DNA from: a virus
DNA length: 34,597 bases
Virus record (IMG/VR): IMGVR_UViG_3300042542_002720
Span: 1-34,597 of that record
Reading direction: 5' to 3' (one strand)
Shown here: positions 31,230-33,537 of the stretch, piece after piece
How positions within the stretch are numbered: the first letter of the stretch is position 1
How the letters are laid out: each line of letters opens with the position of its first letter
Program-made: the position numbers and the translations under genes
The notes under the pieces: generated by a model
What the model saw: only the letters and a program-made list of their open reading frames with translations
Told to the model about the DNA's origin: nothing
Databases searched by the model: none

Positions 31230-31305
31230 ATCGGTTAGGCGACGGCGATAGGGTGCCCACATTTTTAACCGATGTCAAAATAATCCTTGACAGCTCCAAT
31301 GGAGC
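31230..31305. promoter_or_regulatory. Divergent control region with inverted repeats
   Basis: Between the two operons are three perfect inverted repeats. ATCGGTTA (31230-31237) pairs with TAACCGAT (31266-31273). TGTCAA (31273-31278) pairs with TTGACA (31287-31292), the latter being the -35 box of the rightward promoter. GCTCC (31293-31297) pairs with GGAGC (31301-31305) inside its spacer. They are probably operator sites for a repressor or activator. I see no clear sigma70 promoter for the leftward block. Confidence 0.55.
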
Positions 31306-31315
31306 CATGTATAGT
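31287..31315 (+). promoter_or_regulatory. Strong sigma70 promoter for the rightward operon
   Basis: TTGACA (31287-31292), 17 bp, TATAGT (31310-31315): a perfect -35 and a five-of-six -10 at ideal spacing. Transcription would begin near 31322, giving a leader of about 186 nt before the first ATG. Two inverted repeats overlap it. Confidence 0.82.
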
Positions 31316-31344
31316 GGCGTCAGTTGGGTGCATCAGTGACCCGC

Positions 31345-31356
31345 CGCTCCTTAACA
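31345..31356 (+). promoter_or_regulatory. boxA-like antitermination element
   Basis: CGCTCCTTAACA matches the rRNA boxA consensus TGCTCTTTAACA at ten of twelve positions. It lies about 23 nt after the predicted transcription start, the usual place in rRNA and phage nut-type leaders. NusB-S10 binding there would prevent early termination. A short GGGT/ACCC stem (31326-31342) precedes it. Confidence 0.5.
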
Positions 31357-31507
31357 ATCCGATCGAAACACCCTAGCAACAAGCCGGCGCGAAGTGACGC
31401 TCACTCCCCGCTCAGTTGAAGTCCGGCCAGATAACCACAGACGCAGCGCCTGCACACGCGGACGCTGCTGCGGTGGAATTAACCACCACTCACAGGAGAT
31501 ACAGACC

Positions 31508-31741
31508 ATGAAGCTCAATCAAGTAGGGTCGAACCGCACCATCCTCACACTTAACAACGGCAACCAGATCGGCTTCTCGTATGAGACGCCAGTCGTCGCT
31601 GAAATCGATGGCGTGACGTACAAGACCGAGAAGAAATTCAGCGTGACCACCAGCAAGCACTGCGGGCAGTTGCTGAACGAAATGACCGGCAGCTTCGGCG
31701 GGCTCAAGCCGCAAGCGTTTTTTGAAGCGCTGCTGCCATGA
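31508..31741 (+). CDS. DUF8033-like small protein
   Basis: 77 aa: MKLNQVGSNRTILTLNNGNQ, then FSYETPVVAEIDG, a TTSKHCGQLL segment and an end at AFFEALLP. This pattern is a common small protein of phages and plasmids. No function is known. It is the first gene of the rightward operon, after a long leader, with AGGAG before its ATG. Confidence 0.72.
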   Translation: MKLNQVGSNRTILTLNNGNQIGFSYETPVVAEIDGVTYKTEKKFSVTTSKHCGQLLNEMTGSFGGLKPQAFFEALLP

Positions 31742-31974
31742 CCACCACCGTCCGTTACACCGGCCACGGCATCAATACAGGTGGCCTGCAAGGTCACAGC
31801 GTCGGTGCCGATTATCCGTACATGATCATCGGTATCGCCGACCGGATCGAACAGCCGACCGAATGGCAGGTCATGGATTGCCGCACCAGCAACCGCAGCG
31901 AACGCTTCCCGACCTACCAGCGCGCAGTGATTGAGATGACATCGCTGCGCACCCGCAACCTGATGCACTCTTAG
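31738..31974 (+). CDS. Small protein, unknown
   Basis: 78 aa, with YTGHGINTGGLQGHSVG, YPYMIIGIADRIEQ and an Arg/Thr-rich end. No family is recognised. It overlaps the preceding stop as ATGA, and the downstream gap holds a structured RNA element. Confidence 0.65.
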   Translation: MTTTVRYTGHGINTGGLQGHSVGADYPYMIIGIADRIEQPTEWQVMDCRTSNRSERFPTYQRAVIEMTSLRTRNLMHS

Positions 31975-31984
31975 AGTAGCAGCC

Positions 31985-32007
31985 ACAGCCGCGTGACAGG
32001 CGGCTGT
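31985..32007 (+). ncRNA. Hairpin with GTGACAG loop, copy 1
   Basis: ACAGCCGC (31985-31992) pairs perfectly with GCGGCTGT (32000-32007) around the 7-nt loop GTGACAG. It starts 11 nt after a stop codon and lies in the leader of the DUF932 gene. Two smaller stems follow (CGGCA/TGCCG and GCGGG/CCCGC). No T-run follows, so it is not an intrinsic terminator. A second copy lies after the DUF932 gene. Confidence 0.7.
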
Positions 32008-32061
32008 ACCGGCAACTCTGCCGTAACCGTAGCGGGCGGATACCCCGCATAGGAGAAGCAA

Positions 32062-33126
32062 ATGGGAACACTTATGCAAGCATCAAACCAATGGGCAACG
32101 CGCCCGGCCGACGAGCGTTACACGAATCTGAATGACATGCTCGATCACTTCCAGCAACAGCGCCTGCTGTCCGGCGAAAAAGTCGTGTCGTCGCGCAAGC
32201 TGATTGCATCGCCGACCGAAGACAACAAGGGGCTGCTGATCAACGGATATGCACCGACACACTGGTCGTTCGGGCAACTGGCACAACTGGCTGAAGCACC
32301 GGCCGGCTACCTGCGCACGCTACCGAGCCCGGTCGCTGCAGATTGCATCAACTACGGCCTGCAGTTCAAGCGCAACATCGAAGATGTCGGTGTCCTGCTC
32401 TACAAGAACGGCGACAGCGTACTGAAGGCAGCCACTGGCCCGCGCTACGGCCGTATCTGGAACGACGACATCACGCACTCGCTGGTTAATCACTTCGGCG
32501 ATGGCGTGACCGGCGACTTCAGGGTGCCGGGCGAGTTCGGCAAGCAGGTCGAAGTGACCAAGGAAAACACCACGCTGTTTGCAGGCGATCGCGACATGTT
32601 CGTGTTCCTCGCCGATGAGCAGCACCGCATCGAACTACCCAATCGCCGCAACGGCAAATCCGGCAGTCTCGCTCGTGGCTTTTTCTTCTGGAACAGCGAG
32701 GTCGGCGCACAGACTTTCGGCATGGCTTCGTTTCTCTTCGATTACGTCTGCTGCAACCGCATCGTATGGGGCGCGCAGGAGTTTCAAGAGGTCCGCATCC
32801 GTCACACGGCCAGCGCACCGGACAAGTGGCTCGGCGAGGTCATGCCAGCCCTCGAAGCGTACAGCCGCAGTAGCACCGGCAGCGTCATCGCCGCAATCGA
32901 GGATGCCCGCAAGGACAAGCTCGACGACAAGGTGAATGAATTCCTTGCGCAACGCTTCGGCAAGCGCATGGTCGATTCGCTGCAGGCCACGCACTACGCT
33001 GAAGAGGGTCGTCCGATCGAGTCCCGTTGGGATGTCATCACCGCCGTTACCGCACAGGCCCGCAACGTCCAGCATCAGGACGCACGGGTCGAACTGGAAC
33101 GGCAGGCCGGCGCGCTTCTGCAGTAA
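32062..33126 (+). CDS. DUF932 family protein
   Basis: 354 aa. The first third has SSRKLIASPTEDNKGLLING-type residues, then TGPRYGRIWNDDI (about 120-132), RDMFVFLADEQHRIELP (about 174-190), and a Ser-Glu-Val-Gly-Ala motif near 215-230 with TFGMASFLFDYVCCNRIVW. This series is typical of DUF932 proteins of phages and plasmids (also annotated TIGR03299), whose biochemical role is not settled. AGGAGAA precedes the ATG. Both flanking gaps carry GTGACAG hairpins. Confidence 0.88.
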   Translation: MGTLMQASNQWATRPADERYTNLNDMLDHFQQQRLLSGEKVVSSRKLIASPTEDNKGLLINGYAPTHWSFGQLAQLAEAPAGYLRTLPSPVAADCINYGLQFKRNIEDVGVLLYKNGDSVLKAATGPRYGRIWNDDITHSLVNHFGDGVTGDFRVPGEFGKQVEVTKENTTLFAGDRDMFVFLADEQHRIELPNRRNGKSGSLARGFFFWNSEVGAQTFGMASFLFDYVCCNRIVWGAQEFQEVRIRHTASAPDKWLGEVMPALEAYSRSSTGSVIAAIEDARKDKLDDKVNEFLAQRFGKRMVDSLQATHYAEEGRPIESRWDVITAVTAQARNVQHQDARVELERQAGALLQ

Positions 33127-33142
33127 GTGACAGTGACTCAGT

Positions 33143-33165
33143 GCAGCCCCGTGACAGGGGGCTGC
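33143..33165 (+). ncRNA. Hairpin with GTGACAG loop, copy 2
   Basis: GCAGCCCC (33143-33150) pairs with GGGGCTGC (33158-33165) around the loop GTGACAG (33151-33157). Stem pairs differ from copy 1 in two places by compensatory changes (A-U to G-C, and G-C to C-G), while the loop is identical. Another GTGACAG (33127-33133) lies just before it. The element precedes the next gene's ribosome site. Confidence 0.7.
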
Positions 33166-33195
33166 CATGTACTCACTCACACAAGGAGAACCGCA

Positions 33196-33537
33196 ATGAC
33201 AGACATCAACATCACCCGCTTCTACAACGAAGCCGCGCCGATGGATTACAGCGCGAGCGTCATGGAGATCGGCGCGAACGCCGGCCGCGATACGTGGCAG
33301 GCAGCAGTGGAAGACGCGCCCGATTACAACCTGCTGAACAACGACGACGATCGCGACGAATTCCGCGCGCACATCAAAGGCTTCGGCGCATGGTCGGACG
33401 AAGAGATTGCCGCATGGACCGACATGGAACTGAACGCACTGTTCATGCAACTGATCAGCGGCGACATCCGGTCAGGCGAAACCGATCGCATCTGGACGGA
33501 CGAAGCAGGACAAACCTTTTACACGATAGGAGACTGA
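33196..33537 (+). CDS. Phage/plasmid-type small protein (unknown)
   Basis: 113 aa, acidic. The block DEFRAHIKGFGAWSDEEIAA (about 55-75) and LMQLISGDI-like residues, then an end FYTIGD, occur in many short proteins of phages, plasmids and integrative elements, without a function. The ATG at 33196 has AAGGAG upstream; a longer in-frame start passes through the hairpin and was rejected. Confidence 0.75.
   Translation: MTDINITRFYNEAAPMDYSASVMEIGANAGRDTWQAAVEDAPDYNLLNNDDDRDEFRAHIKGFGAWSDEEIAAWTDMELNALFMQLISGDIRSGETDRIWTDEAGQTFYTIGD

Follow-up and report, generated by a model that had tools for sequence, protein, structure and literature searches.

Lambdoid nut sites consist of a boxA approximately 10-15 nt upstream of a boxB hairpin, and the phage encodes an N-like arginine-rich antiterminator. 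REPs are palindromes that lie close behind stop codons inside operons, and those within approximately 15 nt of the stop affect translation; they are defined by a REP consensus and go with a RAYT transposase. Among the gene 43 and gene 32 operators of T4 and RB69, the gp43 operator, about 40 nt ahead of the start codon, is a hairpin with a specific loop, while the gp32 operator is a pseudoknot located 5′ of the ribosome binding site (PMC3014915). The put site of HK022 is about 70 nt long, lies near the early promoter and has two stems, with a bulged, triplex-forming stem I (PMC9378689). For the extended start-associated sequences (ESAS) of cluster K mycobacteriophages, the authors concluded that the sequence changes do not support RNA pairing (PMC3203893).

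Here, we describe a hairpin, P1, that occurs twice between genes in a 34.6-kb virus record from IMG/VR (the window, meaning this whole stretch of DNA), together with a second hairpin, P2, and a predicted pairing, P0, of the sequences flanking P1. Like REPs, P1 is a palindrome just past a stop codon within an operon; unlike REPs, it is phage-specific and has a fixed apical loop, and the stem and loop in the window are presumably unlike the REP sequence. Like the lambdoid nut site, it is a small hairpin of specific loop sequence in early RNA that is not translated, and its loop changes between related phages, but it differs in its many copies, second hairpin, flank pairing and lack of boxA. As in put, two hairpins are adjacent in early phage RNA (PMC9378689), but the element described here is shorter, lies between genes and has a perfect 8-bp P1. 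The ESAS are likewise repeated inverted repeats upstream of non-structural genes in one orientation (PMC3203893), whereas the changes found here do support RNA pairing. Each of nut, put and ESAS fails on at least one tested feature. The closest working analogues appear to be the T4 gp43 and gp32 operators, which also place a phage RNA structure in the leaders of replication genes; in those cases, a phage protein acts as repressor of the gene encoding it (PMC3014915), whereas one and the same P1 accompanies many different genes across unrelated phages and is anchored to the upstream stop codon.

Two hairpins with one loop in the window

The first-pass annotation of this DNA had reported two 8-bp hairpins closing the loop GTGACAG, with compensatory differences at two stem positions and no T-run behind either of them, and our analysis agreed on all three points (Table 1). 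Between copy 1 and copy 2, stem pair 1 changes from A-U to G-C and stem pair 7 from G-C to C-G, and the U-run directly 3′ of the hairpin that characterizes intrinsic terminators is absent at both copies. Only three perfect hairpins with a 7-nt loop and eight or more stem pairs occur in the whole window, two of which share GTGACAG; two same-loop hairpins of that kind were obtained in 0 of 200 dinucleotide-preserving shuffles of the window. The bare GTGACAG sequence is not enriched (four seen, seven expected).

Copy 1 sits between the 78-aa gene and the DUF932 gene, and copy 2 between the DUF932 gene and the 113-aa gene. These three genes are on the + strand, and the − strand carries the large structural genes of the window (terminase, portal). 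Both copies had initially been assigned to leaders of small genes beside DUF932, which is correct for copy 2, preceding the 113-aa gene after DUF932, but copy 1 is in the leader of DUF932 itself. A third GTGACAG, recorded before the second stem, is indeed present at 33127-33133, but it is stemless and is missing from the closest relatives. Further upstream, at 31286-31360, there is a promoter, TTGACA-N17-TATAGT, with the palindrome GCTCCAATGGAGC in its spacer, and a similar arrangement is found in a sister phage (G030).

Table 1. Features at the two copies of the element in the window and in the adjoining genes
Feature	Positions	Strand	Description
Upstream 78-aa gene	31738-31974	+	Stop TAG 31972-31974; phrog_29226; 85% identical in sister phage
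P0a, copy 1	31973-31977	+	AGAGT, overlaps stop codon; predicted pairing with 32015-32019
P1 hairpin, copy 1	31985-32007	+	ACAGCCGC[GTGACAG]GCGGCTGT; perfect 8-bp stem, loop GTGACAG
P2 hairpin, copy 1	32010-32023	+	CGGC[AACTCT]GCCG; loop contains P0b ACTCT, 32015-32019
DUF932 gene, 354 aa	32062-33126	+	Stop TAA 33124-33126
P0a, copy 2	33132-33136	+	AGTGA; predicted pairing with 33173-33177
P1 hairpin, copy 2	33143-33165	+	GCAGCCCC[GTGACAG]GGGGCTGC; perfect 8-bp stem, loop GTGACAG
P0b, copy 2	33173-33177	+	TCACT; predicted outer helix encloses P1; P2 weak here
Shine-Dalgarno of 113-aa gene	33184-33188	+	AGGAG
Downstream 113-aa gene	33196-33537	+	Open reading frame

Copies in other phages, stem covariation and position

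The pattern AGCCNSGTGACAGSNGGCT, in which the loop and four stem pairs are fixed and two inner pairs are free, matched 113 IMG/VR viral stretches, compared with 14 for an otherwise identical control pattern, the loop of which was permuted to GACAGTG with the same dinucleotides. Pairing at the free stem positions was seen in 50 of the 59 distinct contexts; the control loop gave 3 of 14. A pattern with a second stem, TGCCSN...NSGGCA, matched at least 120 stretches, and 81 of the 90 distinct contexts among the matches listed were paired. Over 80 distinct copies that remained after clustering, all eight stem pairs vary on both sides, and the covariation score was 0.738, compared with 0.156 when shuffled and at most 0.127 when slid; these 80 copies had been pre-filtered for at least six pairs, and the unfiltered pairing rates (50/59 and 81/90) are the cleaner evidence. 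At the site orthologous to copy 1, a single pair is found as C-G, U·G and U-A in 97%-identical backgrounds. The hairpins almost certainly belong to a real family of RNA elements. Selection on the RNA fold, already favoured from the two window copies, is strongly supported, because there are many further copies in other phages, covariation at 8/8 pairs and a bias to the sense strand. The annotation had staked this reading on further copies and on pairing in close relatives; such copies were found, with the pairing kept.

The carriers are many unrelated, mostly uncultured phages, most of which have one to three copies per genome; one of them (G016) has six, of which two have the loop GTGACAG and four have GTCAGAG. 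The 257 Gb of cellular genomes searched yielded 26 matches, about the level of chance, mostly unpaired and inside ORFs, which argues against prophages as carriers. Rfam 15 covariance models at the gathering threshold detected only tRNAs in the window and in 17 loci of carriers, BLAST searches started from four leader sequences detected no named isolate carrying the element, and the literature matches to the loop sequence were microRNA noise.

When the loop was left free (GCAGCCCG-N7-CGGGCTGC), nearly every place had a different loop, and the sole loops to recur behind stop codons were GTGACAG and GTCAGAG. GTGACAG is strongly favoured, but loop identity is not absolute, because one phage has other P1 loops and the sister phage has GGAACACG twice. 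In this sister phage, the DUF932 of which is 86% identical, both hairpins and their flanks are kept around the changed loops; we found no GGAACACG-loop hairpin in other phages, and a comparison of the loop-swapped sisters for a diverged gene yielded several weakly conserved genes, with no clear candidate. The phage with other P1 loops (G002, L008 4525-7875) has five to six early cassettes, in which a constant P2, GGGCGACTTGCCC, is combined with long P1 hairpins with the loops GCAA, GCGA, GACTA, GTGCA and GATTA.

Counting ORFs of at least 50 aa and measuring to the 8-bp stem, we found a stop codon 3-15 nt 5′ of P1 on the sense strand in 69 of 99 clusters, compared with 10 of 99 on the antisense strand and 5.8% of random positions. 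The gap from stop codon to P1 has a median of 10 nt (IQR 8-12), and that from P1 to the next start codon a median of 35 nt (SD 16). This spacing and the sense bias indicate an element that takes its position from the upstream stop codon and that acts as RNA. Since its position between stop and start codons is fixed, a free-standing small RNA, one of the roles first listed for it, is unlikely. Readthrough of the stop codon was also rejected: the downstream frame was open at 0.51, against 0.47 for other frames, and the start was in frame in 25 of 59 cases. The element is bordered by genes of early or replication functions (DUF932, DNA polymerase A, SSB, clamp, RusA and PAPS reductase), and these neighbours differ among carriers.

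A second hairpin and pairing of the P1 flanks

P2 starts 1-3 nt 3′ of P1 and is followed by the Shine-Dalgarno sequence of the next gene. The threshold P2 score was reached by 36 of 89 sites, compared with 7 on average and 11 at most in shuffles; P2 was detected at about half of the sites and a clear P0 at a smaller number. Folding revealed pairing of the two P1 flanks: own partners gave −9.65 kcal/mol and permuted partners −7.38, and 0 of 2000 permutations were as good. The mean duplex energy of own flanks is no better than that of random genome positions (−9.12), which differ in composition, and the flank pairing is claimed solely from the comparison of own with swapped partners. At the 46 sites with P2, pairing between the P2 loop and the 5′ flank was equalled in 0 of 5000 permutations (z 4.8-6.0), whereas the pairing of a control segment 3′ of P2 with this flank was no better than permuted (z −0.1).

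The paired 5′ segment overlaps a stop triplet in 18 of the 25 clear cases. At copy 1 of the window, AGAGU (inside UAGAGU, which is the stop codon plus the bases that follow it) is predicted to pair with ACUCU of the P2 loop. In two phages (G015 and G016), ten cassettes are almost identical outside the partner triplets, and within these both partners change together, UGA/UCA, UAA/UUA and UGU/ACA, in one register. Judging from these sequence comparisons, what appears to be new here is that the flanks pair across P1 and that the P2 loop pairs with the stop-codon segment. P0 across P1 and the P2 loop would form a pseudoknot-like layout, either a pseudoknot or two competing folds. Pairing of the GTGACAG loop with P2 or with itself was rejected, complementary k-mers not being enriched downstream, as was kissing between two loops of one genome, for which only G008 showed a complementary loop. 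In this phage (L091 4007, 5033), a GTGACAG hairpin precedes a DUF932 gene, and a hairpin whose loop is the exact antisense sequence, CTGTCAC, follows it.

Proposed function and rival explanations

The element is an unnamed conserved RNA that probably controls the neighbouring replication and early genes. Our main reading, with a probability of roughly 45%, is an intercistronic RNA operator that is sensitive to the terminating ribosome and whose loop would dock a trans-acting factor. This operator would act in cis in early phage mRNA, from a position between two genes of the same operon, with P1 kept free of ribosomes and its loop as the putative docking site. A ribosome terminating on the upstream stop codon would remodel P0/P2, and the early genes on either side would depend on both upstream translation and the bound factor for their own translation (or stability). 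In a more specific version, which we consider somewhat unlikely, the stop-codon segment would itself be a pseudoknot strand, closed by the downstream hairpin loop around the factor-binding hairpin, and the arrival of the ribosome at the stop would directly switch both the RNA and the gene that follows.

A binding site for an RNA-binding factor, as suggested in the first-pass annotation, is plausible, but the proteins shared by carriers include no candidate factor. Neither a protein family common to the carriers nor an N-like protein was identified, by a search in which very short peptides would be missed, and DUF932 is present in only 7 of the 37 records searched; for these reasons, the putative factor is more likely to be host-encoded than phage-encoded. 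DUF932 was accordingly rejected as the partner, as was a shared trans-acting phage protein, the largest shared clusters (terminase, polymerase and others) being present in 6 of 15 carrier groups. The element would represent a new family of structured phage RNA, present in dozens of unrelated early operons but rarely, if at all, in cellular genomes. The loop common to unrelated phages points to a common host partner that should be biochemically retrievable, and the pairing of the stop-codon segment with a downstream loop would provide a testable link from translation termination to the control of the next gene.

A role in mRNA processing or stability is unlikely. P1 would shield the upstream 3′ end and P2 the downstream 5′ end after nearby cleavage by host RNases or a phage RNase, and T7 RNase III sites and REP elements act as such protective elements. 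The location at 3′ ends of genes inside operons, the stable stem, the second hairpin directly after it and the varied P1 loops in the constant context of G002 are all consistent with protection. A generic protective hairpin, however, needs neither flank pairing nor a loop fixed across unrelated phages, and the tally of loops, at loci partly chosen by GTGACAG, was 94 for GTGACAG, 22 for GTCAGAG and 10 for the next.

It is quite improbable that the hairpin serves, like boxB or put RNA, as a loading site for an antiterminator and thereby sustains early transcription. The early operons, the untranslated position, the fixed apical loop and the presence of two hairpins, as in put, suggest such a role, and both loops are swapped in concert in the sister phage, as boxB loops differ between lambdoid phages. 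GTGACAG loops also occur in U-run intrinsic-terminator hairpins (L294 8015 and 8282, L334 11639 and L340 4700), which points in the same direction; these terminator-type hairpins are found only in these three related phages, which also have the usual P1/P2 element. On the other hand, up to six copies inside 4 kb exceed what antitermination needs, and boxA patterns within 70 nt upstream of 89 independent copies occur at the shuffled level only. The boxA-like CGCTCCTTAACAATC of the window, at 31345 after the promoter and approximately 640 nt 5′ of the first hairpin, is identical in G027-G029 and absent in the sister phage, which keeps both hairpins. The proposal of a nut-like site with this boxA is thus not upheld. 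Moreover, the bulges and triplex of the approximately 70-nt put RNA (PMC9378689) are not seen here.

A DNA-level element (a recombination linker at gene boundaries, a repressor site or a replication hairpin) is very improbable: the element is palindromic, repeated and located at gene junctions, and one phage has the antisense loop downstream of DUF932, but the sense-strand bias (69 vs 10), the fixed register to the stop codon and stem changes that are compensatory, not sequence identity, argue against it.

In one carrier (G029, L176 3953-4429), a gene for a cysteine-rich repeat protein (CSDCSRC units) adjoins the element-bearing operon. The named podovirus MW202483.1 (L256 3634-3691) has a hairpin with a related loop, GGGCGGCT[CGCGTGACAAC]AGCCGCCC, after the same 218-aa gene.
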